In this document: positions 33,142 to 46,465 of the stretch, one piece after another
How the letters are laid out: every line of letters begins with the position of its first letter
Position numbering within the stretch: position 1 is the first letter of the stretch
From: Phycisphaerales bacterium
Lineage (GTDB): Bacteria > Planctomycetota > Phycisphaerae > Phycisphaerales > UBA1924
Direction: 5' to 3'
DNA length: 64,000 nt
NCBI GenBank assembly: GCA_029260495.1
Contig: JAJDDD010000020.1
Coordinates: 248,001-312,000 of the forward strand
The notes under the pieces: generated by a model
The model's input: the letters and a program-made list of their open reading frames with translations, nothing else
Told to the model about the DNA's origin: nothing
The model's database searches: none
Made by a program: the position numbers and the translations under genes

Positions 33142-35436
33142 ATGCCTCACGATCACGCCAGCGAAGACCGTTTTGCGGAACTCGAAGATCGCCTCGCTCA
33201 GATCGAGAAGAAGCTGGGCCTGACCTGGCGCCCCGTAGCGCCGAAATCGCCCGAGCTGCCGGAAACCCCACCCGCGCCCACGATGTTGTCCGTGCCGAAA
33301 GCGCCGCCGCTGGCTCCCCCAACGACCGCCGCAGTGCCAGACGACAAGCAGACTGCCCTCGCGGATGTATTTCCCCCGCGCCGGGTCAAGAAAGAACCCT
33401 TCTCGACGGAGCAGCTCATCGGCGGCAAGACATTCGCTGCTCTCGGCGCGATCGTCGTCGTCATCGCGGTGGGCTTGCTCTTCAAGCTCGCCTGGGATCG
33501 GGGCTGGTTCGCCAACATGAGCCCGGAGATGAAAATCGGCGCCGGCGTGCTCTTCGGATTTGTGCTGCTCGGCGCCGGCGAGTGGGCCCTGCGCCGCATC
33601 AACGCAGCCGCCTCGGCAGGACTCAGCGCCGCAGGCATCGGCGTGATCTACACGTCCGTCTATGTCTCCATGACGCTTTTCAACCTCTTCACTCTACCGA
33701 CGACGTTTATGCTGCTCGCAGCGACTGCGTTTCTCGGCATCGCCGTCTCCGTGCGCTCTCGTCTCGCGGCCGTCGCGATCATATCACTCATTGGCGGCTA
33801 CCTCGCGCCCGTTCTTGTGCCAACGAACACGCCGCATCCATATTTCTTCACGTCCTACCTGGTGACGCTGCTCCTCATCTCGCTCGTGCTCTCCTCGTGG
33901 ATAGGGCGCACGATTCCCAGCTTCCGCGCGATTCGCTCATTCGGATGGTGGGGCACGATCCTTCTCGGCCAAATGTGGGTGCTTAAGGAGGGGTTGCAAA
34001 CTCCACAGTGGGCTCTCCTCTTCCTCAGCGTCGTTTGGGCCGCCGTGCACGCGGAGCGCTTCGCTGCATCACGCCAACTCTTCGCAACAGACAACCCGTC
34101 TGAGGACACCGACGATCGGCCCCTTCGCGCAGACCTCCTCCGCCCTTCGCCGGCGACTGCGTCCGACCCACAACCGATGGAGGTCGCTGCCTCAATCTCA
34201 ACCACCGCCTGGGTCACCGCGCTCGGCTGGTTCATCGCTGAGAAAACCGCCGTCGTCGAGCCATGGCTCATCCCCGCGGCGCTCGGCGCTCTGTGCCTGA
34301 CCATTTCATCTGTCTTTGCAGGCCATCTGCGGATCATGCGCGATCTCCCGCGCACAGAGCCCGAGCGCGTCGGCGCCGGCCTGCTCGTGCAATCCGGCTC
34401 GCTCTTTTTGCTCGCGATTGGGCTTGGATTCTCGGATTGGCCGCAAGTTATCGCGTGGCTCTCACTGGGCCTGGCTGCGATCGCCGGCGGTCGATGGATC
34501 AACTCACGAGGACTCGACTATTACGGCGTTGTCACGCTCACCATCGCCACGGCGCATCTCGCCGTCTTCGGCGCCAACGCTACGCCCTGGCCCGCGGGAT
34601 TCGAAACGCTCGGAATCTTTGTCACCGACTGGCAGCTTCGCTTCTTTATCGCCGCGGCAGTCTGGATCGCCGCAGGAGTGCTCATGCTCATTCGCAACGC
34701 AGACGAACTCCCCATCCGCGCCGTCAGCAGCGCCGGCATCGGCATCATCATACTCGGCGCCTTCATCGCCCACCCGCGCTCGCTCGCCCCAAGTGTGCTC
34801 ATCGCGTGGATGGGCATCGCCGGAATCCTTGCAGCAGCGCACTACTTCATCCCGCGATTACACTTGCGAGCTATGGGGCTTGCGCTGTGCGGCGCGTCAT
34901 TGGTCTACTGGGTTGCGCACTATCCGCTTGAAGGATGGTCAAATATCCCCGCGCCCATCGGGCTGCATCCCGGCTTGTGGCTTGCATTCGCAATCATCAG
35001 CGTCTCGCTCGCTGTCACATACATCCGCGCCTGGATCACCGACGACGCTATTCGCAAGCAGATTTTCACTGCGGTCGCCGCGGTAACGACGGGTCTCTTC
35101 TTCACCGCGACGTCGTTTGAAGTCGCCCGTGGCGCTGCGGAGCTCGCGTCAGACGACACCGTCCGCCTCGCCGCGCTCTCCATCTATTGGGGCCTGTTCG
35201 GCGTCGCGATGATCGCTGTCGGCTTCCGCGCGCGACAGCCGGCTGTGCGCTACATCGGCCTCGCTCTCATTCTTGTTTCGACCGCCAAGGCGCTCGTCGT
35301 GGACCTCGCAGAAGTCCCCGCGGGATGGCGCATCGCGAGCTTCTTCGGGCTCGGCATGTTAATGCTCGGCGTGGCGGTCGCCTACGCCAAAATCGCAGCC
35401 AAAGGTGAGCAAACGACCGAGCCTATCCTGGAATAG
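33142..35436 (+). CDS. DUF2339 family polytopic membrane protein
   Basis: The 764-residue protein begins with a short helix (DRFAELEDRLAQIEKKLGLT) and a Pro-rich linker, then ~20 or more membrane segments. The DUF2339 start is recognisable: EQLIGGKTFAALGAIVVVIA, LLFKLAWDRGWF, MKIGAGVLFGFVLLGAGEWA and AAGIGVIYTSVYVSMTLFNL. The function is not known; the family occurs widely in bacteria. ATG 33142 is preceded by GGAGA, and just before that is an operator-like inverted repeat. The DUF2752 gene follows 80 bp downstream. Confidence 0.87.
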   Translation: MPHDHASEDRFAELEDRLAQIEKKLGLTWRPVAPKSPELPETPPAPTMLSVPKAPPLAPPTTAAVPDDKQTALADVFPPRRVKKEPFSTEQLIGGKTFAALGAIVVVIAVGLLFKLAWDRGWFANMSPEMKIGAGVLFGFVLLGAGEWALRRINAAASAGLSAAGIGVIYTSVYVSMTLFNLFTLPTTFMLLAATAFLGIAVSVRSRLAAVAIISLIGGYLAPVLVPTNTPHPYFFTSYLVTLLLISLVLSSWIGRTIPSFRAIRSFGWWGTILLGQMWVLKEGLQTPQWALLFLSVVWAAVHAERFAASRQLFATDNPSEDTDDRPLRADLLRPSPATASDPQPMEVAASISTTAWVTALGWFIAEKTAVVEPWLIPAALGALCLTISSVFAGHLRIMRDLPRTEPERVGAGLLVQSGSLFLLAIGLGFSDWPQVIAWLSLGLAAIAGGRWINSRGLDYYGVVTLTIATAHLAVFGANATPWPAGFETLGIFVTDWQLRFFIAAAVWIAAGVLMLIRNADELPIRAVSSAGIGIIILGAFIAHPRSLAPSVLIAWMGIAGILAAAHYFIPRLHLRAMGLALCGASLVYWVAHYPLEGWSNIPAPIGLHPGLWLAFAIISVSLAVTYIRAWITDDAIRKQIFTAVAAVTTGLFFTATSFEVARGAAELASDDTVRLAALSIYWGLFGVAMIAVGFRARQPAVRYIGLALILVSTAKALVVDLAEVPAGWRIASFFGLGMLMLGVAVAYAKIAAKGEQTTEPILE

Positions 35437-35516
35437 ACCTCTCTCTTTCCTCGTTGGATTTGAGTCAGCAGCAACACGCCGAAGAAAAATTAGAAAGAGA
35501 ATGCTACGGTCTACCT

Positions 35517-36014
35517 ATGTCACGAGTAGTCATTGGCGAGCCTGATCGGAACGCCGAGCCGTCAGCGGCGCGGGCGCGCACGCCGCGACGGACAGGGATT
35601 GGCGGGCGCCTAACCGCTGGCGCCGTGGCTCTGGGTTGCCTGTCCGTGCTCGCTCTCGCAGCGTATCTACACGCTGACGGTCGCGGTCACGGCACCCATG
35701 AACAACTCGGCCTCATGAAATGCGCCTGGCCCATGCTCTTTGACAAGCCTTGCCCGACCTGCGGGATGACGACGTCGTTTACTCATGCTGCAAATGCCGA
35801 CCTGCTCAGCGCAGTGCAGACGCAGCCATTCGGAGCGGCGCTGGCGATCGGAACATCGGTGATGTTCTGGATGGGGCTCTACGTTGCGCTGACGGGCTCC
35901 CGGATTTGGGCGGTCGGAATGCGCATGCTCAACGGCCGAACGATCGCGGTGCTCGGACTTCTTGCGCTCGCAGCCTGGGTCTACAAAGTTCTCACCTGGC
36001 ACAGCGCCGGTTAA
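35517..36014 (+). CDS. DUF2752 family membrane protein
   Basis: ATG 35517 gives a 165-residue product; the longer frame from TTG 35454 has no ribosome binding site. The DUF2752 motif is clear: MLFDKPCPTCGMTTSFTHAA, with the CPxCGMT core between membrane segments. Three or four membrane segments (AVALGCLSVLALAAYLHA, AALAIGTSVMFWMGLYVAL, IAVLGLLALAAWVYKVL). The conserved Cys pair suggests metal or redox chemistry, but no function has been established for the family. It follows the DUF2339 gene on the same strand. Confidence 0.8.
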   Translation: MSRVVIGEPDRNAEPSAARARTPRRTGIGGRLTAGAVALGCLSVLALAAYLHADGRGHGTHEQLGLMKCAWPMLFDKPCPTCGMTTSFTHAANADLLSAVQTQPFGAALAIGTSVMFWMGLYVALTGSRIWAVGMRMLNGRTIAVLGLLALAAWVYKVLTWHSAG

Positions 36015-36039
36015 AGCAGGAAAAACGCATCGCCATTCT

Positions 36040-36461
36040 TACGATCCGAACCTGCCGGCAATCAACATAACTGCTCCAGCCGGCGCGCCATCGCCTTTTC
36101 TCAAGAGCACGCCATATCTGAACCGCCTACAACCCCGTCGCCGTCAAGATCAGCCAGACTTCCAGCCCCGCCCCTCTCGCCGAGCAAGCCAGCCAATTCA
36201 CTCGCGCCGACGACGCCATCACCGTCGATGCCCCCTAAGAGACTCCGCGAGCGAGGACACATACAACAGATCGTCAATCAGAAACTCACCCCTTTGCAGG
36301 ATGCCGTCGCCATCCTGCGTGAAGTCAAGCGTTGAGTGAACGCGCGCCTCAAAGTAGTCCGGTCCGACCACTTGCACTGTTGGCTCGCCGCCGCCCGCCG
36401 CAGCGCGTGTCCCCAAAAATAATGCTGTTACGCACAGAGTCAGTGCAATGTTCATAGTCAT
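36040..36461 (-). pseudogene. Decayed paralogue of the adjacent dockerin-tailed secreted protein
   Basis: The frame from ATG 36461 encodes a signal peptide (MTMNIALTLCVTALFLGTRA) and VQVVGPDYFEARVHSTLDFT, parallel to VRLVGQSQFKGHRSRLLDFT in the next gene. It then jumps straight to GEFLIDDLLYVSSL, which matches GDFLMDDLVYIPTP far downstream in that gene: about 150 residues are missing. After a run of five G the frame ends early at 36219, but the other frame continues GIDGDGVVGASELAGLLGER and LADLDGDGVVGGSDMA, a dockerin pair. A second shift near 36110 is needed to reach the final LLRKGDG. So it carries one internal deletion and two frameshifts. The G-run shift could also be a sequencing error. 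Confidence 0.65.
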
Positions 36462-36576
36462 GCCTCGGGCTTATTTGCTCCGAGAGATCATGACTCGAGT
36501 ACGATGCCGATAAGATCGACATGTACTGATGAGTTTATTATTTCTGGCACACGATTGCCTTTCAGACAACCGTTCA

Positions 36577-37353
36577 TCAGGGACAGTCTGCACACATGTG
36601 CCTGACGAGAATCCCAATATCATTGCTGTCAATCCGGCCGTCGTCATTTAAATCGGCAAACTCAGCGTCGGTCCCCAGCGCGCCCAGCACAAGAACAAGG
36701 TCGCCAGAGTCAACAGCGCCGTCGCTATTGATATCGCCCGGCCCAACGTCGGGCGTCGGTATGTAGACCAGGTCGTCCATCAGGAAGTCGCCGCCCTGAG
36801 GGATGCCAAACGTAAACAACGTAAACGGTTCATTTGAAGCCACGCCAAGAAAGAATGCGTTATATGTCACACCGTTGATTTTTTCTGTCGCAATGATGAA
36901 CGAATCGTCAACATCAAATGTTCCACCCGCACCCGAAACAAACAGGTTCGGCGTCATGTCCTCAAGGATGACTGTAATTCCCGCGGCCCGAACAGGCGTG
37001 GCGAAATGGACTGCGGTAAACCCGAAGGTGCTCACCACCACCGGCTTCGAGATCGCCTCCCGAATAGAGCCGCTGACCTGCGGCAGGTTCTCCACAAAAA
37101 TCCAGTTAAACGTCACCGCACTATTGTCAAACTCAATGCCAATCGGTTGATATTCAGTAATCATGTCAAACGTACCACCGGGACTCTGCACCGGGCTGCC
37201 ATTGCCATCCAAAGTGAAGTCCAGCAGCCTGCTTCGGTGGCCTTTGAACTGTGATTGACCCACCAATCGCACCACTGCCTGATTTGAAATCGCCGGCTCC
37301 GCCTCGCCGACACCCAACATTGATGCGAACAACGCAATAATAATTGACATCAT
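36577..37353 (-). CDS. Secreted protein with C-terminal dockerin repeats
   Basis: The start is set at ATG 37353 (MMSIIIALFASMLGVGEAEP), preceded by GGAG; upstream ATG codons exist but lack that spacing. The 258-residue product has a signal peptide, a beta-rich body of ~180 residues (FDNSAVTFNWIFVENLPQV, PVRAAGITVILEDMTPN) that I cannot assign but that resembles jelly-roll-type surface domains, and two dockerin calcium loops (GDINSDGAVDSGDLVLVLGA and DLNDDGRIDSNDIGILVRHM). It is the intact sister of the decayed copy 115 bp downstream. Role unknown; presumably surface-associated or released. Confidence 0.75.
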   Translation of the reverse strand: MMSIIIALFASMLGVGEAEPAISNQAVVRLVGQSQFKGHRSRLLDFTLDGNGSPVQSPGGTFDMITEYQPIGIEFDNSAVTFNWIFVENLPQVSGSIREAISKPVVVSTFGFTAVHFATPVRAAGITVILEDMTPNLFVSGAGGTFDVDDSFIIATEKINGVTYNAFFLGVASNEPFTLFTFGIPQGGDFLMDDLVYIPTPDVGPGDINSDGAVDSGDLVLVLGALGTDAEFADLNDDGRIDSNDIGILVRHMCADCP

Positions 37354-37565
37354 CAAGCTCCACATGGCAGGGTGTTGAAAGCCTACATCATAGCAATATA
37401 CTGCCTGCGTACAAGAAAAACACAACGACTTTCAACCACTTGGTGTAGACCAATACCGCCCAAGCGATCAAGTGTCAGTTGAACACCCTGTTGAGAGTGA
37501 ATCGCGCCCTCACCAGGCTCGATGGCCTGAGAAACCCCACCGGACGCTTTGTGAGATCGCCGCCC

Positions 37566-37739
37566 CTATGTTTTGGGCGCACGGCGAACCAGACCAAGAA
37601 TCAGCGAAACCAAAAACACGATCAAGAAGATCACGAACAGAATTTTCGCAATGGAAGCCGCGCCTGCAGCGATACCGGTAAAGCCGAAGACTGCTGCCAC
37701 GATCGCGACAATAAAGAAGACAAGCGCCCAATAAAGCAT
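37566..37739 (-). CDS. DUF1328 small membrane protein
   Basis: This 57-residue gene has ATG 37739, preceded by GGAGA. It encodes [20 protein letters not shown], then [20 protein letters not shown] and a short basic end (LVRRAPKT). This matches the DUF1328 (YtjA-like) family: two membrane helices joined by a Gly/Ala-rich turn. Such proteins are often stress-induced, but their role is undefined. It lies 111 bp after the zinc-ribbon membrane protein gene on the same strand and could belong to the same unit. Confidence 0.85.
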
Positions 37740-37850
37740 GAATAATCTCCATTTCTAGGTGTAATCAGCAATTGAGGCTTTGCAGAAGAATCAATGCAGG
37801 CGGCGGCCTTCCTGCAACACCGACAATGGTAGCATGGCTGCAGCGCTCAG

Positions 37851-38951
37851 TTATGCGAGTTGTTTCGCAATCAATGCAATCACCACGAGTGCGATTACTC
37901 CCGCAACGACTGCGCCGATGATCTTCCACGCGCTCTTGGGATAATCCCCGCTCGTTGCGCCTGTATATCCATTAATAACGACTTGAAACGATCGCTGACC
38001 AAACGTGTACGTCATAAGCCATACCGGCACAAGGATGTGCTTGAACGACTGCCCGTCATACGATGCATCAACGTTGAGATTGCGATGCGTATCGCCGGGG
38101 ATATCACGAATGCACATATTGCGCAGCGCCGCATCCATTGCGTTCCGGGCTTGCGCCGCAGCGTCAATCAGAACAACCTGATAATGCTCAACGACGAACC
38201 CTGACAGATACGCGGTGTCATACGGAACAAGATCATTGGTTGGAAATGGCTCGACAGCCTTGAGATGCTTGCTGTGAATCCCAACGCTTGCTGGCACCGG
38301 CGCGTCATCAAAGAAATGATCCACCGAGCCCGACGCAGGAAACCAGCGTGTCTTGCGATCTTGAACTGTGCGCGTCTTCCCGTTGGAGTCCCGCACCGTC
38401 CGCGATACGTAATAATATTCGCCCGCTGTCGCGGTCCAGTCCGCGTGCGCCTGCGCATCGAACGTCCAGTAGGGAATATACACGCCGCGAAGCGTATCAA
38501 CCAGCGCCATGCGCCTGAGTGTGTTCGGTGCGAACCATCGCTTCGCAAACCACTGACGCATTGATTCACGAACGCGAGTTTCATCTATTTTAAAGGGCAA
38601 AAGACTCAACGGGCGAATGGGCGACTTCACCTCGTCATAATCAACCAGCGCCGGTGATCCACAAAAATCGCAATGCTGCGCAACTCGTTCAGAATCAAAG
38701 ACTGTCACTGCTTTGCAGTGTCTGCAGCGAACCGTCTTCTTCTCCGCTCGCCACCCGCGCAAATCCTCAGGCATGTCGCGCAGCGTTGCAACCAGATCGA
38801 TCTCCTGAATCTCACCCGTATCCCTGTTGAGTTCACCCGGAGACTCCGTGCCGCAGTATGTGCATACAAGAGCCTGCGCCTTGGGCTGCCACTCAGCCTG
38901 CCCTCCGCAGGCTGGGCACGTGTCGCGCTTGATGGCGGTGAGGTCTACCAT
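37851..38951 (-). CDS. Zinc-ribbon membrane protein (TFIIB-type ribbon, YdjG-like)
   Basis: The start is ATG 38951; the longer open frame overlaps the SPFH gene and has no support. The 366-residue product has two N-terminal zinc ribbons, CPACGG with CTYCG and then CRHC with CDFCG (residues ~10-80). A long middle domain follows (FKIDETRVRESMRQWFAKRW, YIPYWTFDAQAHADWTATAG, HILVPVWLMTYTFGQRSFQV), and the protein ends in one C-terminal membrane segment (IIGAVVAGVIALVVIALIA). This is the layout of Bacillus YdjG-type proteins, which are encoded beside an SPFH/virion-core-like protein, as here. It is probably anchored facing the cytoplasm and part of a complex with its neighbours. Confidence 0.78.
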   Translation of the reverse strand: MVDLTAIKRDTCPACGGQAEWQPKAQALVCTYCGTESPGELNRDTGEIQEIDLVATLRDMPEDLRGWRAEKKTVRCRHCKAVTVFDSERVAQHCDFCGSPALVDYDEVKSPIRPLSLLPFKIDETRVRESMRQWFAKRWFAPNTLRRMALVDTLRGVYIPYWTFDAQAHADWTATAGEYYYVSRTVRDSNGKTRTVQDRKTRWFPASGSVDHFFDDAPVPASVGIHSKHLKAVEPFPTNDLVPYDTAYLSGFVVEHYQVVLIDAAAQARNAMDAALRNMCIRDIPGDTHRNLNVDASYDGQSFKHILVPVWLMTYTFGQRSFQVVINGYTGATSGDYPKSAWKIIGAVVAGVIALVVIALIAKQLA

Positions 38952-38970
38952 AACTCCGAGCACTACCAAC

Positions 38971-40047
38971 TCAGCTCGCAAGGTACGCGCGAAGATCGTC
39001 CTGTTTAATCCGAACGCTGGAGCCGATGCGCTTCGCCTGCAGTTCACCATTCTCAACAATCGCCAACACATCGTCTTCAGAAACGCCGATCGCCTTGGCA
39101 ACCTCTGCGGGCGTAAGCAGTTCCGGAAGCCCAGAAGGCGCTGGTGAAGAAGCCGGAGTTGAAGCCGCCGCAACCTGCCCGGGAGGCGCCCCGCCGGGCA
39201 GCCCGCCCTGTTGCATCATCTGCTGCGCAATCGCTAGCCCGACAGCCATCTCTGTCGCCATGCCACCCGCTCCACCCCCGCCCCGCGACATGCCTTCTGC
39301 CATCTGGAACTTCACATAGTCGTTCAAATCGCCAACCGCCGCCATACCCGAGCGCTTGTCGATTGCCTCCTCGACCTCCTTGGGAACCGAGACATTCTCA
39401 ACAATGAAACTAGCAATCTCCAGCCCGTACTTTGCCCGCGTCAAGGGGTTAATCAATGGCAGCAGCGCATCTCCGAGCTCCGAATACTTTGTCGCCACAT
39501 CCAGCACCGGAACATTGGATGTCGCCAAAGCCTCGCTAAAAATACTCACAATGCGTGAGCGCATCGTCTCGGCAAACTCATCCAAGCGAAACGTATGATC
39601 CGACCCCGCAACTTCTTTCAGAAATGTCTGAACGTTGACAATGCGAAAATCATATGTCCCAAACGCCCGTGCCCGCACAATGCCAAAATCATCATCGCGC
39701 ATCATGATCGGGTTGGAAGTGCCCCACTTGTTGCCTGTAAAAAGCCGCGTATTGATGAAGTACACATCGCATTTGAACGGCGATTGAAACCCATACTTCC
39801 ACCCTTCCAAACGAGTCAGAACGGGAATATTCTCCGTTTCGAGCCTGTGCTTGCCAGGCCCGAACGCGTCGCCGAACTGACCCACATACACAAACTGAGC
39901 TACCTGAGATTCACGAACGATGAGCTGCGCCCCGCGCTTGATCGCCTTGTCCTCATCAGCAAATCGATGGGAAAGAACATCGCGGGAGTCGTCCGTCCAC
40001 TCGATGATTTCGAGCAGTTCGCCTTTAATAAAATCAAGAATGCCCAT
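38971..40047 (-). CDS. SPFH / virion-core-like protein with C-terminal helix-turn-helix (YdjI-like)
   Basis: The 358-residue protein begins MGILDFIKGELLEIIEW and has the SPFH-type core of YdjI relatives: GAQLIVRESQVAQFVYVGQF, GPGKHRLETENIPVL, NPIMMRDDDFGIVRARAFGT, then a helical part (RSRIVSIFSEALATSNVPVL, GLEIASFIVENVSVPKEVEE). A Gly/Met/Gln/Pro-rich linker (residues ~250-305) leads to a helix-turn-helix of the excisionase/MerR-like HTH_17 type (LTPAEVAKAIGVSEDDVLAI, then RIGSSVRIKQDDLRAYL). That tail replaces the zinc ribbon common in this family. ATG 40047 follows AGGAG. SPFH proteins form membrane-bound rings or scaffolds. The zinc-ribbon gene follows after 19 bp. Confidence 0.82.
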   Translation of the reverse strand: MGILDFIKGELLEIIEWTDDSRDVLSHRFADEDKAIKRGAQLIVRESQVAQFVYVGQFGDAFGPGKHRLETENIPVLTRLEGWKYGFQSPFKCDVYFINTRLFTGNKWGTSNPIMMRDDDFGIVRARAFGTYDFRIVNVQTFLKEVAGSDHTFRLDEFAETMRSRIVSIFSEALATSNVPVLDVATKYSELGDALLPLINPLTRAKYGLEIASFIVENVSVPKEVEEAIDKRSGMAAVGDLNDYVKFQMAEGMSRGGGGAGGMATEMAVGLAIAQQMMQQGGLPGGAPPGQVAAASTPASSPAPSGLPELLTPAEVAKAIGVSEDDVLAIVENGELQAKRIGSSVRIKQDDLRAYLAS

Positions 40048-40155
40048 TGTCTTCGCGCTCCTGTTTCAAGCCCTCACACCAACGATCGCCACCCACCAGC
40101 ATAGCCGGCTCGCGCTGGATTCGTCTGTCGAACCCCCACACATCAACTCTACAAT

Positions 40156-42609
40156 TCACTCAAGCCCCGGCGATGCAGGCCGCGCGATTCCAGTCGGATC
40201 AACAACATAGGGCGCCCAGACCAGATCCGCCCGACTGATCGTCGTGTCCGCCTTGCGCGGGCGAACAACGATGCGTTCTATTTCAACGTCGTTGACGCCG
40301 TCCCCATCTCGAACGCGCCCAAGCTCATCCTGAAACTCACGCTCCAGCGCCTCCAGTTGTGCGCGCAGAGCTTCTTCCGTCTCCTCGGCCCGCGCGATGT
40401 CCCCGCGCTCGCGCGCCGTCCTGCCCACGCCGCGCGCCGCCGTCGCTGCCCTGCCCACCGTCCCCGTGCTTACCTTTTTGCGCCCAAGAATCGCCCCGAG
40501 CAGCGTCGCCCCGAATGAAATCGCCGTCTGGAATCCCTGCTGCTTCGCCTGCTCTTTCTCGCGCTCCACCCGCTGCTCGGATCGGCGCACACGCTCCACA
40601 AGCGTGCGCATTTTTGGCGCATACTTCTTCTTGATCTTCTCGATCTGCAAATCTCGCTTCTCACGCGCCAAGTGTCGCAACTGCGCCCGGAACTCATCTT
40701 CCGATTCGTTCGGCGCCGACTGCGCTTTCAGCTCCTTGCACTTGAGCACCGTCACCTCGTGGGTTCGATACAAATGACTCTTGAGCATTCGCTCCCAGCG
40801 CGTATGCGTTGTCTTGCGTGACGCCTCAGCGGGAAGTTTCCCATACTGCGCATCTTCAACCGGCGATAACGCCACCCCCGGCTCCGCCCCAAGCGCATCC
40901 GCCTCCGCCCATGGATTCGCCACCGATCCGCCCAGGCGCGCAAGCAATGTCACATGCTTCCATTCATCAACCCCCACCGACGTGCGCACGTGATGAATCA
41001 CCGCACACCCAAGCAGCGCCGGTTGATACACCAGCGAATACCCAACCCGCGTCTGCGCATTCGCATACAGATACTGATGCTTCATCCCCGCAGGAAGAGG
41101 CGGCGGAGTGGCTGACCCCTTGCCCGCCCCTTTCCTCCGAGCGCCCCCGCCTGTCTTTGAGCCCGTGGCCTTCTCTGCTTTGGCTGTCGCCTGGGCTAAT
41201 TGCTGACGTTTGTCATTCATCAGTGAACTGATCTGTGCGCTCGTCAACGGCCCGCGCAAGTACGACATCGCCCAGCGCGTGTGAAACAGCGTGGGCCCGT
41301 CATCATGCACGTTGTTCATCAGAAAGACCCGGCTATCAAGCCCAGAGATCATCTTTTCAAGCTCGGGGCGATCCATTCCCCCAGCGCCGGCTGTCTCAAG
41401 ACCGTCCAGCAAGCGTCGCTTATCCCGCTCGGTTTGCAGCCGGCCAATGAACCACGTCCCCGTGTTGGAAAGGCCTTTGTAATCAAGGTCCGCCGGATTC
41501 TGCGTCGCCAACACCACGCCCAGCCCATACGCCCGCGCCTGCTTCAGGAGCGTCAACATCGGCGTCTTTGATGGCGGATTGGCGACCGGCGGAAAGAACC
41601 CGAAAATCTCATCCATATACAAAATCGCGCGCAAACTCCCCGTCCCGGGCTGACGCCGCATCCACGAGATAATCTCACCCAGCAGAATCGTCACGAAGAA
41701 CATCCGCTCAGCGTCCGAAAGATGCGCAATCGAAAGCACACTCACGCGCGGCTTGCCCTCGGCGCTGTGCAGCAGCTTCCCAATATCAAGAGGCTCGCCA
41801 TGTCGCCACCCTTCAAACTGCGGCGAAGCCAGTAGTGAGTTCAGCGACATCGCCAGCTTGTTTCGGTCCTTCGCAGGAAAGAACGATTCAACATCCATCA
41901 CGCCAAGCCGATCAAAAGGCGGCGACTGTGTTTGCATAATCAACCCCGCGATGTCGAGGTCCTCCCCTCGACGCCACGCCCGATCAACAATGCTGGTGAG
42001 CAAAATATGCTCGCGACTCTGCGTCGGATCCGCCTCGATCCCAACCAGCGCTAACAGCCCCGCAACCGTCGCGCTTACGCGCTCGCGCACTGCGTCCGCG
42101 TCATCCGCAACAGCGCTCTCCGGCGCGCGCAAACTGCGCAGCACGCTGATCGGCAACCCCGCCGACCCGCCCGGCGTGTAGATCGAAACCTCCGCCGACT
42201 CGCGCAATCGCGCAATCCGCTCTCCATCCTCTCCCCACTGCCCCAACCCCCACTTCCACAGCTTCGCTCGGTCAGCGGCGTATTCATCCGCTGTCATCCC
42301 GTTGCGCGCCGCTTCCGCGTCGTCAACCCACGGACGAAAGTCGCCCGGCCGCAACTCCGGGAACGTCAACATCAGATTCCCAAGATCACCCTTGGGATCA
42401 ATCGCAATCGTCGGCACGCCGTCGATCGCCGCCTCTTCAAGAAGGGAGACGCACAGCCCCGTCTTCCCGCTCCCGGTCATCCCCACGCAGATGGCATGGG
42501 TCGTTAGATCTTTGGAGTCATAGAGCAAAAGCTCATCCGTCGGCTCGCCCGCTCCGACGTCATAGGTCTTGCCAAGATAAAATGAGCCCAGTTTTTCGAA
42601 GTCAGACAT
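40156..42609 (-). CDS. HerA-like (DUF87/FtsK-HerA superfamily) ATPase
   Basis: The start is ATG 42609 with GGAG upstream. The 817-residue protein has an N-terminal HerA-type ATPase domain: Walker A GMTGSGKTGL (residues ~43-52), IAIDPKGDLGN, Walker B ILYMDEIFGFFPP, a sensor Gln in LGVVLATQNPADLDYKG, and the Arg-rich segment WFIGRLQTERDKRRLLDGLE. Residues ~495-535 are a Lys/Gly-rich linker; the last ~280 residues include a long charged coiled coil (REKRDLQIEKIKKKYAPKMR) with a short hydrophobic stretch (FQTAISFGATLLGAILG) that may contact the membrane. HerA ATPases form hexameric pumps for DNA or other cargo. It heads a unit with the SPFH-HTH and zinc-ribbon genes. Confidence 0.85.
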   Translation of the reverse strand: MSDFEKLGSFYLGKTYDVGAGEPTDELLLYDSKDLTTHAICVGMTGSGKTGLCVSLLEEAAIDGVPTIAIDPKGDLGNLMLTFPELRPGDFRPWVDDAEAARNGMTADEYAADRAKLWKWGLGQWGEDGERIARLRESAEVSIYTPGGSAGLPISVLRSLRAPESAVADDADAVRERVSATVAGLLALVGIEADPTQSREHILLTSIVDRAWRRGEDLDIAGLIMQTQSPPFDRLGVMDVESFFPAKDRNKLAMSLNSLLASPQFEGWRHGEPLDIGKLLHSAEGKPRVSVLSIAHLSDAERMFFVTILLGEIISWMRRQPGTGSLRAILYMDEIFGFFPPVANPPSKTPMLTLLKQARAYGLGVVLATQNPADLDYKGLSNTGTWFIGRLQTERDKRRLLDGLETAGAGGMDRPELEKMISGLDSRVFLMNNVHDDGPTLFHTRWAMSYLRGPLTSAQISSLMNDKRQQLAQATAKAEKATGSKTGGGARRKGAGKGSATPPPLPAGMKHQYLYANAQTRVGYSLVYQPALLGCAVIHHVRTSVGVDEWKHVTLLARLGGSVANPWAEADALGAEPGVALSPVEDAQYGKLPAEASRKTTHTRWERMLKSHLYRTHEVTVLKCKELKAQSAPNESEDEFRAQLRHLAREKRDLQIEKIKKKYAPKMRTLVERVRRSEQRVEREKEQAKQQGFQTAISFGATLLGAILGRKKVSTGTVGRAATAARGVGRTARERGDIARAEETEEALRAQLEALEREFQDELGRVRDGDGVNDVEIERIVVRPRKADTTISRADLVWAPYVVDPTGIARPASPGLE

Positions 42610-42769
42610 GTAAGAACACTCCGCGAATGCGTCGCGATAGCGTACGCGCTCCTCCACCTGGCGCCACATCGCTCGTCGCGCCCCTCTGATCGGTCTGTGT
42701 TTGGCGTCAGACGATCATGCCGATCCCGACTTGTCATAATGGCCCATCCAGCCCGCCAAGGAGAATCCC

Positions 42770-43276
42770 ATGACCGAGCAATGCGACGGCCCCGCCTCCA
42801 CTGTCACCGATGAACACATGAAGCTCACCCCATTCGCCGGCGTCTTCGCCGCAGAGGTCAAACTCTGGATGGGCCCCGGCGATCCCCATATCTCCACCGG
42901 CGTCATGGTGAACGAATGGGACCTCGGCGGCGCCTTCCTCAAACAAACCTACACCGGCGATCAGCAGGAAGGCCCCTTCTTAAACTTCGAGGGACGCGGC
43001 TACTGGGGCTACAACACCGACATCGGCAAGTACGAAGGCTTCTGGATCGACACCGCTTGCACCTCGATCCAAACCGAAACCGGCGATGTCGATCCCTCAG
43101 GCAAGGCCTGGACCATGGTTGGCCAACTCGTAAACCCCCAAACAGGCCAGCCCATGTCCAAACGCTCGCTCTACACCGTCATCAGCGACGACGAACATCT
43201 CATGGAGAGCTTCTTCGCCGGCCCTGATGGCGCCGAGTTCAAAGCCATGGAGATTCGCTTCAAACGCAAAAAGTAG
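42770..43276 (+). CDS. DUF1579 family protein
   Basis: The 168-residue protein matches DUF1579: HMKLTPFAGVFAAEVKLWMG at the N-terminus, GDPHISTGVMVNEWDLGGAF, FEGRGYWGYNTDIGKYEGFW, and MESFFAGPDGAEFKAMEIRF at the end. It is a small beta-barrel-like cytoplasmic protein of unknown role, frequent in planctomycetes. ATG 42770 follows AAGGAG. It diverges from the HerA-like gene. Confidence 0.8.
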   Translation: MTEQCDGPASTVTDEHMKLTPFAGVFAAEVKLWMGPGDPHISTGVMVNEWDLGGAFLKQTYTGDQQEGPFLNFEGRGYWGYNTDIGKYEGFWIDTACTSIQTETGDVDPSGKAWTMVGQLVNPQTGQPMSKRSLYTVISDDEHLMESFFAGPDGAEFKAMEIRFKRKK

Positions 43277-43421
43277 GCAGCCAAAACCTGATCGCCACCC
43301 TTGCCGATCCAACTGGACCCCGCCTCTCCTCTTCGGTACCATTTCCGATTCGCCGCTGATGGCCCACGGGGCTCCACAGCTGTTCCTGAATCAGAATCCA
43401 CGCGACCGCAGAGAAGACGCT

Positions 43422-43676
43422 ATGAAAACCGATATCCACCCCAAATATTACCCGAACTGCAAGGTCTTCTACAACGGTGAAGTCGTCATGGAGGTCGGCG
43501 CGACCGTTCCTGAGATGCACGTCGAAGTCTGGTCCGGCTCCCACCCCTTCTTCACCGGCAAGCAGTCTTTCGTCGACGCCGCCGGCCGGGTCGAGAAGTT
43601 CCAGCGCAAGTTTGGTGGGAACTACTTCCAGAGCAGCAAGAAAAAGAAGCAAGCCGCCGACGCCAACGACGGCTGA
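43422..43676 (+). CDS. rpmE: 50S ribosomal protein L31, zinc-free form
   Basis: The start is ATG 43422, giving MKTDIHPKYYPNCKVFYNGE and 84 residues. HPFFTGKQSFVDAAGRVEKF is the L31 signature. The zinc-binding form has a CxC near residue 16 and a CxxC just before HPFFTG; here only Cys13 remains and SGS stands before HPFFTG, so this is a C-minus (zinc-independent) L31. The C-terminus is extended and Lys-rich. prfA follows 71 bp downstream, a pairing seen in many bacteria. Confidence 0.92.
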   Translation: MKTDIHPKYYPNCKVFYNGEVVMEVGATVPEMHVEVWSGSHPFFTGKQSFVDAAGRVEKFQRKFGGNYFQSSKKKKQAADANDG

Positions 43677-43747
43677 CGCCAGGCTATCGGCTGCGCTTCC
43701 AGGTCCTCTCCCGCGGACGCCTGCTCCAACACTGATAAGCTCTCTGA

Positions 43748-44854
43748 GTGAGCAGCGAATCCCCCTCCATCCCGGAATCAGTGCTCCTCCGCCTTGAGGA
43801 GATGGCCTCTCACCGGGACGCGATGGCGCGCGATCTTTCCAATCCCGACATCCTCGCTGACCACCGCAAAGTGCGCGATCTCTCCATCAAGAAGGCTGCC
43901 CTCGATCCTGTTGTGGATCATTACCAGAAGCTTCAATCCCTTCGTGCCGAAGCTGCAGACCTGCAACAAGCCCTCGACGCCGGCGACGATCCGGAACTCG
44001 CTGAGCTGGCTCGCGAAGAACTGCCCAGCCTCGAATCACAAACGAGCGAACTCGAGCGCCAACTCCTCGAATCACTCGTCACTGCTGACGACGCTGCCAT
44101 TGGCTCCGTTATCCTCGAATTGCGCGCCGGTGTCGGCGGCGACGAAGCCGGCCTCTGGGCCCGCGACATCCTCGAAATGTATAACCGCCTCGCAGCCCGG
44201 CGCCGTTGGACCGTCGAATCCCTCGACTTCTCCGAATCCATCTCGGGCGCGGCGGGGGGCGGCATTAAGAGCGCCGTCATTACACTCTCGGGCGAAGGCG
44301 TCTGGACAGACCTCGCCCACGAAGCCGGCGTCCACTGCGTTAAACGCGTCCCCGCGACCGAAGCCCAGGGACGAGTGCACACCTCAACCGCCACCGTCGC
44401 GGTCCTCCCCGAGCCTGACGAAGTGCAAATCGAAATCGACGCCAGCGACGTTGAAGAGCACATCACAACCGCCCAAGGCCCCGGCGGCCAAAATGTCAAC
44501 AAGGTTGCGACCGCGGTCCACCTCGTCCACAAGCCAACCGGCATCGAAGTGCGCATGCAGGAAGCCAAAAGCCAGCGCCAAAACCGCGACAAAGCCTGGC
44601 GCCTGCTCCGCGCTCGCCTCTACGACATGGAGCTCGCCCGCCAGCGCGCCGAACGCGCCAAAGAGCGCAGCGCCCAGATCGGCGCCGGCGGTCGCGCCGA
44701 ACGCATCCGCACCTATCGATATAAAGAAAGCATCGTAGTCGATCACCGCCTTGGCGAATCATTCAACCTCGAAAAAACACTTGCCGGCGATCTTGATGAT
44801 CTGCTCAGCGCGCTCAAGAAACAGGACGTCGCAGAGCGATTAGCCGCGCTCTGA
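43748..44854 (+). CDS. prfA: Peptide chain release factor 1
   Basis: The 368-residue protein ends translation at UAA and UAG. It has the peptidyl-hydrolysis motif GGQ in TAQGPGGQNVNKVATAVHLV and, in the stop-codon recognition region, KRVPATEAQGRVHTSTATVA, where PxT (PAT) marks RF1; RF2 would have SPF. The helical N-terminal domain and C-terminal RIRTYRYKESIVVDHR segment are complete. GTG 43748 is the likely start; its ribosome binding site is weak. The prmC methylase that modifies the GGQ Gln does not follow here, unlike in many genomes. Confidence 0.95.
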   Translation: MSSESPSIPESVLLRLEEMASHRDAMARDLSNPDILADHRKVRDLSIKKAALDPVVDHYQKLQSLRAEAADLQQALDAGDDPELAELAREELPSLESQTSELERQLLESLVTADDAAIGSVILELRAGVGGDEAGLWARDILEMYNRLAARRRWTVESLDFSESISGAAGGGIKSAVITLSGEGVWTDLAHEAGVHCVKRVPATEAQGRVHTSTATVAVLPEPDEVQIEIDASDVEEHITTAQGPGGQNVNKVATAVHLVHKPTGIEVRMQEAKSQRQNRDKAWRLLRARLYDMELARQRAERAKERSAQIGAGGRAERIRTYRYKESIVVDHRLGESFNLEKTLAGDLDDLLSALKKQDVAERLAAL

Positions 44855-44908
44855 AACCGTCACCATCAGCAGCGCGGCGTCGCAAACACACTCAAAATGC
44901 GCTCGCGC

Positions 44909-46465
44909 CTACAACTGCGCCGCCGCCAGCGACGCCAGTGCGCTGCGTTCACTCTTCGCCAGCGTCACATGCCCCACCAGCGATTCGCCCCGCAAATGCT
45001 CGATGCAATACGACAATCCATTGGATGATTCATCCAGATACGCATGATCGATCTGCCCGATATCACCCGTCAAAATCAGCTTTGTTCCTTCGCCAACCCG
45101 CGAGACAATCGTCTTCACTTCGTGCGGCGACAGATTCTGCGCCTCATCCACAATCATGAACTGATGCGGAATCGAGCGACCGCGAATATATGTGAGAGGC
45201 TCCAGAATCAACTTGCCATCTGAAAGTAGTCGCTCGATGCGCTGCTCGGTTGATTGTGAGTCAGCGTTCTGCATATGCGAACCGCGCGTCGAAAGCAGGT
45301 AATCAAGATTGTCAAAAATCGGCTGCATCCACGCCGCAAGCTTTTCATCCTTGTCACCAGGCAAGTATCCAATATCCCGCCCCATCGGAATGACAGGCCG
45401 CGCCACCAAAAGTCGCTCGTAAAGCTTCTCCTGAAAAACCTTCTGCATCCCCGCAGCCAGCGCAAGGAGCGTCTTGCCCGTGCCAGCGCCGCCCGTCAGC
45501 GTCACCAGCTTCACTTCATCATCAAGCAGCAAATCCATCGCCATCGTCTGCTCAAGATTGCGCGCCATGATTCCAAAAATCGGCTTGCGCGGCGCGGTCA
45601 CCGGCACAAGATGGTCCGTATCCCCAATGCGCCGCCCAACACCCGAGTGCGATTCATCCAGCGAATCATTCATCACGACAAACTGATTGGGCTCCGGCGT
45701 GCGATCAATCGTCTGCCCATCTTCTTTTTCAATCCGCAGATTGTCCGCGATACGATCAATCGCAATCATGCGCTCGCTATACAACTCATCAATCAACTCA
45801 CCCGACGCATCAATCCGCAGCATTCCCGTGTACAGCCGATCCGCATCAATCTTGTGTGATTCATAATCCTCCGCCTGCAACCCCAGCGCATCGGCCTTCA
45901 CCCGCGCGTTGATGTCCTTGGACACGAAAATCGCATGCAGCCCCTCTTCCATCAGCATATGCGCGACTGAAATAATCCGGTTGTCCGGCGAATCGGAGCG
46001 AATCGCGTGCGGCCTCTCATCAGGCGAAACCACAATCCGCACCAGCCCCGTCTCTTCACTGGTCACACGCTCCTCGAATGCGTCGCTCCATGATACGCCC
46101 TCTTCGAGCTTTCCCGCCTCACGCAGCGCATCGAAATATCGAATCACCGTCCGCGCGCTTCGGCTCAGATCAGAGTTCCCCGACTTAAAATCATCCAACT
46201 CCTCAAGCACCGCAAACGGAACCACAACGTCATGTTTCTTAAATGCGAAAATCGATTCCGGATCGTGCAGCAGCACATTGGTGTCCAGCACAAAGTGCTT
46301 CACACCCCTGCGATTGGCGGCTGTCTTGCTCACTTGCGACTTCGTCCGCTTTTCCTGTTCCAACTCGTGCGTCCTCGCGCTCACGGTGTTGGCCGGACTC
46401 GCGCCGTCACGCTGCTTGGCTCGTTGTGGTGATGTCGCTGGCGTCGTTGTTTTGCTGGCGGGCAT
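44909..46465 (-). CDS. PhoH2-type protein (PIN ribonuclease domain plus PhoH ATPase)
   Basis: ATG 46465 gives 518 residues; a TTG at 46486 is also possible. After a Lys/Thr-rich N-terminal stretch of ~60 residues comes a PIN domain (FVLDTNVLLHDPESIFAFKK, VVVPFAVLEELDDFK, with acidic residues for metal binding). Residues ~290-500 are a PhoH/RecA-like ATPase: Walker A GGAGTGKTLLAL, VARPVIPMGRDIGYLPG, Walker B FMIVDEAQNLSPHEV, and LTGDIGQID. This fusion is YlaK-type PhoH2, an ATP-dependent RNA helicase and ribonuclease, and may act in RNA turnover. It converges with prfA and diverges from the Nif3 gene. Confidence 0.9.
   Translation of the reverse strand: MPASKTTTPATSPQRAKQRDGASPANTVSARTHELEQEKRTKSQVSKTAANRRGVKHFVLDTNVLLHDPESIFAFKKHDVVVPFAVLEELDDFKSGNSDLSRSARTVIRYFDALREAGKLEEGVSWSDAFEERVTSEETGLVRIVVSPDERPHAIRSDSPDNRIISVAHMLMEEGLHAIFVSKDINARVKADALGLQAEDYESHKIDADRLYTGMLRIDASGELIDELYSERMIAIDRIADNLRIEKEDGQTIDRTPEPNQFVVMNDSLDESHSGVGRRIGDTDHLVPVTAPRKPIFGIMARNLEQTMAMDLLLDDEVKLVTLTGGAGTGKTLLALAAGMQKVFQEKLYERLLVARPVIPMGRDIGYLPGDKDEKLAAWMQPIFDNLDYLLSTRGSHMQNADSQSTEQRIERLLSDGKLILEPLTYIRGRSIPHQFMIVDEAQNLSPHEVKTIVSRVGEGTKLILTGDIGQIDHAYLDESSNGLSYCIEHLRGESLVGHVTLAKSERSALASLAAAQL

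Follow-up and report, generated by a model that had tools for sequence, protein, structure and literature searches.

Within the window, that is, the whole stretch of 64,000 nucleotides analysed here, three genes follow one another on the minus strand: a gene for an ATPase of the HerA/FtsK superfamily (42609-40156, minus strand, 817 aa, with the Pfam domains HerA_C and DUF87), a gene for an SPFH (Band_7_1) protein with a C-terminal HTH_17/excisionase-like domain (40047-38971, minus strand, 358 aa), and a gene for its partner, a double zinc-ribbon protein (ZnR) with a C-terminal transmembrane helix (38951-37851, minus strand, 366 aa). Their downstream neighbour (37739-37566, minus strand) codes for a small membrane protein of 57 aa that belongs to DUF1328 (Pfam 52.8 bits versus a cut-off of 27). 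The open reading frames and Pfam scores confirm the places and domains that a preliminary description had given to these genes, including the DUF1328 membrane gene after the cluster. The intergenic gaps measure 108 bp (HerA–SPFH), 19 bp (SPFH–ZnR), and 111 bp (ZnR–DUF1328). In the 108-bp gap no minus-strand terminator-like site was seen, the RNA folding of positions 40040-40180 was as stable as that of shuffles (z 0.13), and an Rfam search of positions 34000-46000 gave no match. The GC content is 0.61 in the HerA gene versus 0.55 in both the SPFH and ZnR genes. No evidence was found to support DUF1328 as a member of the SPFH–ZnR pair. The flanking DUF1579 gene has also been followed elsewhere: in the 10 stretches holding its best matches, none of 11 other window proteins sought alongside adjoined it, and therefore no empty site can be named; one of these stretches carries a DUF1328 gene 4-5 kb away.

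The SPFH protein and its exchangeable tail

The Band_7_1 domain covers residues 27-236 of the SPFH protein (269.6 bits), and the tail matches both HTH_17 (residues 310-357, 39.7 bits, cut-off 27) and the excisionase model TIGR01764 (41.9 bits, cut-off 28.8). The protein lacks a membrane segment of its own (best hydrophobic 19-mer 1.29), a sequence search against solved structures gave no match, and phage records yielded six weak, unannotated matches of at most 28.9% identity. Its tail is an exchangeable module. In fact, GYF_2, SHOCT-like or zinc-ribbon modules fill this slot in relatives, with GYF_2 in 54 of 63 rows, a count in which three HTH, one SHOCT-like, and seven GYF_2-like tails were assigned by eye and two rows (L075 and L234) are one identical protein. 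Four members with the HTH form are known, one each in this genome, in Comamonas, and in two of the gammaproteobacterial genomes sampled, and in all of them HTH_17 scores above the Pfam cut-off. In the SPFH tree, from which two truncated rows (L236 and L252) were excluded, these four proteins form a single clade with 100/100 support, and this genome is nested within it. The proposal that the HTH tail had been gained in place of a zinc ribbon is not supported, given that relatives carry mostly GYF_2 and that the HTH form occurs in proteobacteria. A local invention of the tail is likewise rejected, as the HTH form together with its ZnR partner is already present in proteobacteria, in one clade.

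The HTH domain invites a regulatory explanation, according to which the SPFH-HTH and ZnR proteins would constitute a membrane-anchored transcription regulator whose HTH tails, gathered by oligomerization, would bind to DNA, with membrane stress releasing or exposing them. The HTH_17 scores of the four members and the TIGR01764 score of the window protein argue for it; on the other hand, the same slot is occupied by quite different modules in relatives, and the four HTH tails have a net charge of 0 to -2, which is unusual for DNA binding, so this explanation is judged unlikely. It is also unlikely that the HTH-tailed clade as a whole acts as a membrane-anchored oligomeric regulator, that is, a flotillin-like scaffold with a DNA-binding tail by which the state of the membrane would be read on DNA without PspA or a two-component system.

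Pairing of the SPFH and zinc-ribbon proteins

The ZnR protein contains four CxxC pairs (C12/15, C30/33, C76/79, and C94/97), and an alignment of 13 rows, the window protein among them, shows all eight cysteines to be invariant; the Pfam zinc-ribbon matches fall under their cut-offs. A C-terminal hydrophobic segment starts around residue 344 (Kyte-Doolittle 3.12), and a sequence search against solved structures gave no match. The link between both families is strong. For example, in a phylum sample of 199 genomes SPFH was present in 79, ZnR in 73, and both in 69 (Fisher 3e-37), and among 81 genomes of relatives SPFH was present in 22, ZnR in 23, and both in 22 (6e-19), these p values being based on the best match per genome and ignoring shared descent. 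Both genes lie less than 5 kb apart in 31 of the 69 phylum genomes (not within 5 kb in the remaining 38) and in 19 of the relatives, and the co-occurrence holds also where the genes are not neighbours. The preliminary description proposed to check whether the three families co-occur within 5 kb, and held that the cluster would be chance if they did not co-occur in related genomes; SPFH and ZnR hold together in this check, while HerA fails it as a neighbour, as detailed below. In addition, the pair is adjacent on plasmids of Comamonas, Paracoccus, and Vibrio, and two of the sampled gammaproteobacterial genomes have adjacent SPFH-HTH and ZnR genes, with no HerA seen nearby. SPFH–ZnR is a widespread bacterial membrane-scaffold pair that has probably spread horizontally.

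A search of the window genome (96.8% complete) with PF04012 (PspA_IM30) at E 0.001 gave no match, the same search giving a match in 9 of 14 control genomes, and for this genome an assignment of the pair to Psp is rejected. It has been considered that the pair might be a Psp-type envelope stress module acting via PspA, like ydjGHI in Bacillus. Both protein families match the Bacillus operon by description, as far as passages of PMC11237479 and PMC9239133 go, and the SPFH–PspA association is positive in the phylum, where a PspA match occurs in 35 of 79 SPFH genomes (p 5e-4); however, the other 44 lack one, as does the window genome, and this explanation is improbable.

The HerA-type ATPase

Both Pfam matches of the ATPase pass their cut-offs, HerA_C with 27.3 versus 22 bits and DUF87 with 26 versus 23.2 bits. 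Its core (residues 1-458) carries the Walker A and B motifs of the FtsK-HerA superfamily, with Walker A (GMTGSGKT, residues 43-50) and D333-E334 invariant in alignments of 27 and 40 rows, and is followed by a C-terminal beta domain and a long helical hairpin (around residues 500-817). Among solved structures, six weak matches of the HerA/coupling-protein kind were found by sequence. For the C-terminal part, fold searches of the PDB and BFVD were without a match at E 0.001, and VIA-align gave coiled-coil matches with Z 9.8-11.1 that barely cover the beta part, values within the range that helical hairpins can reach without kinship. The ATPase family is widely scattered, and its C-terminal part is without a clear structural match. 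Membership in the HerA antiphage and MADS families is rejected: the antiphage family NF042943 scored 21.2 bits versus a cut-off of 800, the PADLOC HerA models, which state no cut-off, reached no more than 31.8 bits on short segments, and mads_8 (44.7 bits, ATPase residues 24-402) and mads_1 (16.3 bits, confined to the HTH tail of the SPFH protein) were single-gene matches. A plasmid search with the ATPase returned three weak matches. Hydrophobicity was also used to look for a segment of membrane-anchor strength in the ATPase, and none was found (best 19-residue mean 1.43); the "membrane-tethered ATPase" of the preliminary description is therefore without direct basis.

Co-occurrence of the ATPase with the pair is weakly positive, without correction for descent. 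In the phylum, 19 of 52 genomes were dropped for the distance of their ATPases (no more than 146 bits), and SPFH and ZnR were each present in 19 of the 33 kept HerA genomes (p 0.03 and 0.01, respectively); in relatives, with 2 of 12 dropped (G200 and G251), each was present in 6 of 10 (p 0.02 and 0.03). Adjacency tells otherwise, in that HerA lies less than 5 kb from SPFH in 1 of 19 phylum genomes and in 1 of 6 relatives with both, this genome in each case, although adjacency may be missed owing to the number of draft genomes and short flanks. In 7 phylum genomes both genes lie far apart on one contig. Neither SPFH nor ZnR was found in the examined stretches of other HerA-type loci (0 of 47 and 0 of 86, sets that share some contigs), and the HerA genomes reached via public loci had an SPFH match in 19 of 50 at 1e-20, a share no higher than in the phylum sample (79 of 199 at a looser 1e-10). 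The neighbours of 131 HerA-type loci (window included) comprise large generic families, among them, as assigned by eye, ABC ATPases (12 loci) and sensor-kinase-like proteins (23 loci), as well as clade-level synteny; DUF4332 was one weak lead. The suggestion that HerA stands in for PspA is contradicted by a PspA match in 15 of 33 phylum HerA genomes (p 0.06). The idea that a single operon encodes a membrane-linked ATPase complex in which HerA replaces PspA is compatible with co-transcription (same strand, short gaps, and no terminator-like site between HerA and SPFH), with the weak co-occurrence, and with the lack of a PspA match in the window genome, but it is very improbable given the adjacency in a single genome, the other loci devoid of SPFH and ZnR, the background-level SPFH frequency, the HerA genomes with PspA, and an ATPase devoid of a membrane segment. 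A HerA–SPFH–ZnR complex is accordingly rejected, and the ATPase is judged to be a unit separate from the pair.

Two probably unrelated units side by side

The explanation that we favour, with good though not complete confidence, is that two neighbouring but unrelated units make up the locus: a YdjI/YdjG-like scaffold pair of SPFH-HTH and ZnR, and a solitary pump of the HerA/FtsK type. The first unit has the layout that YdjI and YdjG/H show in Bacillus, except that no PspA is detectable. The C-terminal helix of ZnR would anchor it in the inner membrane, the ribbons and middle domain presumably lying in the cytoplasm, and ZnR would recruit the soluble SPFH protein to the membrane. SPFH may then oligomerize into a membrane scaffold displaying many copies of the C-terminal tail, which could bind a putative client, either protein or DNA. 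The second unit would be a pump of a patchily spread family, probably a hexamer. As the ATPase appears to be a neighbour without relation to the pair, there is no support for the three genes as a single machine, and the locus is for the most part ordinary. A tempting three-gene system thereby drops out. In the sampled phylum genomes, SPFH and zinc-ribbon proteins are tightly coupled, often without PspA, and the tail is exchangeable; the pair therefore merits study beyond the phage-shock context, and a tail swap offers a simple route to asking what the SPFH scaffold binds.

Comparison with known systems

Comparison with HerA proper (Thermococcus, Sulfolobus, and Deinococcus; SIR2-/DUF4297-linked) rests, for the core fold, on Thermococcus HerA, to which the model of the window ATPase is alike (Z 27.7, rmsd 3.9, 350 residues aligned). 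The N-terminal barrel preceding the HerA ATPase core is known as the HAS barrel. Thermococcus HerA has such a barrel domain, whereas the window ATPase does not (residue 4 of the model aligns to HerA 117-151), with its open frame allowing at most about 35 extra N-terminal residues (852 aa), and it bears an extra C-terminal beta and helical-hairpin part. With regard to the pair, a plasmid of Comamonas odontotermitis shows the domain order and two-gene arrangement of the window (the SPFH and helix-turn-helix protein WP_224153175.1 and the TFIIB-type zinc-ribbon protein WP_224153207.1), with 62% identity for SPFH and 47% for ZnR; the gap is 291 bp in the plasmid and 19 bp in the window, and 18.7 kb around the plasmid pair contain no HerA match, whereas in the window the HerA gene adjoins.

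YdjI and YdjG of B. subtilis (pspA-ydjGHI) are likewise among the closest known systems; there, in passages of PMC8581546 and PMC11237479, a likely soluble SPFH protein is accompanied by a membrane-segment protein that bears two zinc ribbons, as in the window, a likeness by description. According to passages of PMC8581546, YdjI forms membrane foci that require YdjG and YdjH, and its two-hybrid contacts are PspA and YdjH, a protein with a TPM domain; these contacts count against the favoured explanation. The Bacillus operon includes PspA, whereas the window genome has no PspA match, and a HerA gene adjoins the window pair. In the part of PMC11237479 that deals with the Bacillus band-7 protein (there written YdjL), its tail is a zinc ribbon, in contrast to the HTH_17 of the window; since the tail varies across relatives, a zinc-ribbon tail is not defining for the wider family. 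Three features of the YdjI/YdjG type are present, namely a Band_7_1 protein without a membrane segment, a two-ribbon membrane partner, and genes travelling together, so that the proposed likeness of the pair to YdjI/YdjG is borne out by domain layout and co-occurrence. The locus holds an SPFH–ZnR pair akin to YdjI/YdjG, with an HTH tail that is also found in proteobacteria.

Genes and genomic setting

Gene calls and domain searches bear out the existence and the preliminary description of three minus-strand genes, which encode a HerA/FtsK-type ATPase (HerA; 42609–40156, 817 aa), a Band_7_1 protein with a C-terminal HTH_17 tail (SPFH; 40047–38971, 358 aa) and a double zinc-ribbon protein with a C-terminal membrane helix (ZnR; 38951–37851, 366 aa), the start codon of the last most likely being 38951 rather than the ORF start at 39173. 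The genes are real, and SPFH and ZnR are a real pair of a known kind; the proposed three-gene HerA–SPFH–ZnR system is without support. The source genome (3.2 Mb in 22 contigs, 96.8% complete) provides an ordinary chromosomal context, with DUF2339, DUF2752 and dockerin protein genes on one flank and DUF1579, ribosomal protein L31, prfA, PhoH and NIF3 genes on the other. By eye, two short ORFs overlapping in different frames at 36101–36461 (minus strand) look like what is left, after a frameshift, of a paralogue of the neighbouring dockerin gene (36577–37425).

Co-occurrence and proximity of the three families

Each of the three proteins was searched in 199 genomes of the phylum and in 81 relatives, and the positions of the best match per genome were then compared. 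In the phylum sample, SPFH was found in 79 genomes, ZnR in 73 and both in 69, in 31 of which they lie within 5 kb of each other; among the relatives the corresponding figures are 22, 23, 22 and 19. The co-occurrence of SPFH and ZnR in the phylum sample is about one to one, distant placements included. Of the genomes with a HerA match, 33 of 52 in the phylum sample and 10 of 12 among the relatives were retained. HerA and SPFH are both present in 19 phylum genomes and in six relatives, and in each sample they lie within 5 kb in one genome, that of the window; in seven phylum genomes they are separated by 0.23–4.5 Mb on the same contig. Co-occurrence within 5 kb, expected of all three families under the three-gene proposal, holds for SPFH with ZnR and, outside the window genome, fails for HerA with SPFH. 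Co-occurrence of HerA anywhere in the genome is weakly positive both with SPFH (p = 0.03 for the phylum, 0.02 for the relatives) and with ZnR (p = 0.01 and 0.03; Fisher values uncorrected for descent), which is mild counter-evidence to the reading of HerA and the pair as separate units. Neither SPFH nor ZnR was found in flanks of up to about 8–9 kb on each side in 47 HerA-type loci besides the window, a set that includes some distant ATPases and some contigs that end early. The same was true of 86 further HerA loci, many with short flanks and a few on contigs of the former set: 80 retained from at least 441 relatives in a scan of public genomes, and six from viral contigs. An SPFH match at 1e-20 is present anywhere in the genome in 19 of the 50 HerA genomes considered (50 of the 80 retained loci). 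The GC content of SPFH and ZnR (37851–40047) is 0.55 vs 0.61 for HerA, a gap compatible with separate origins.

The HerA-like ATPase

The full AlphaFold model of the ATPase (mean pLDDT 82.2) has no domain ahead of the HerA core, which occupies residues 1–458 and resembles Thermococcus HerA (Z 27.7, rmsd 3.9, 350 aligned). For the C-terminal part, a beta plus helical-hairpin structure (pLDDT 87.5 when modelled alone), a fold search against PDB and BFVD yielded nothing at E 0.001. The family is scattered across many phyla, with 46–60% identity among the 80 retained loci (L131–L210). No ATPase-specific neighbour family recurs in 131 loci, except for one lead: nine of them (L053, L054, L056, L057, L059, L148, L158, L183 and L199) have a gene for a DUF4332 (helix-hairpin-helix) protein at a distance of 17–3135 bp from HerA, downstream and convergent in seven. 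Four of the nine come from one bacterial family and have synteny in common. DUF4332 is present in 0 of 30 control loci, a set so small that the enrichment is not significant; the DUF4332 protein is a possible partner of the HerA family.

The HTH_17 tail of SPFH

Among 63 SPFH relatives, 54 carry a GYF_2-like tail (47 by script, seven by eye; one protein counted twice), the others having zinc ribbons (three), HTH_17 (three), a SHOCT-like tail (one) or a truncated end (two). These labels were borne out by Pfam in eight relatives, with HTH_17 in three, GYF_2 in two and zinc ribbons in two, all above the cut-off, and the SHOCT-like tail below it. The HTH_17 tail, previously taken as a gain in the window protein, has three further representatives. 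One is encoded on a plasmid of Comamonas odontotermitis and bears the existing annotation 'SPFH and helix-turn-helix domain-containing protein'; the other two come from a sample of 369 genomes, drawn from the class to which a gammaproteobacterial MAG belongs, in which 22 genomes have an SPFH match at 1e-60. In all three loci a ZnR gene follows SPFH, and no HerA match was found in the surrounding stretches (one extending only 2.4 kb on one side). Over the full length, the window proteins are 59–62% (SPFH) and 47–50% (ZnR) identical to these forms; identity of the window SPFH to the other rows of one alignment is 37–42%, and to relatives over the SPFH part up to 51%. The four HTH-tailed proteins form one clade on a long branch (support 100/100, 62-row tree), and the simplest reading of these sequences is a transfer of the pair between phyla, in either direction. 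No account of an HTH-tailed SPFH/ZnR pair was found in the open-access literature surveyed. The tail may bind DNA; across the four members it carries a net charge between 0 and -2, which lends this no support. SHOCT, a C-terminal module, is reported to be most commonly associated with the SPFH family PF13421 (PMC3581485), which fits the SPFH tail being an exchangeable binding module.

Comparison with known systems

In Firmicutes, PspA has been described as coupled to a band-7 and zinc-ribbon protein and to a two-zinc-ribbon protein with a membrane segment (PMC11237479). In B. subtilis, YdjI contacts PspA and YdjH in two-hybrid assays, and deletion of ydjI lowers membrane fluidity (PMC8581546). 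The window genome has no PspA match, and the same holds for 44 of the 79 genomes with SPFH in the phylum sample (n = 199). The window SPFH is assumed to form an oligomer because a distant bacterial SPFH homologue forms a 24-mer (PMC10936438). YdjG, a zinc-ribbon membrane protein, and YdjI, a band-7 protein, belong to one interaction network (PMC9239133), and YdjI is likely soluble, its membrane foci depending on YdjG and YdjH (PMC8581546). The window pair has this layout in common, and its membrane-anchored ZnR and soluble SPFH would most likely work as YdjG and YdjI do.
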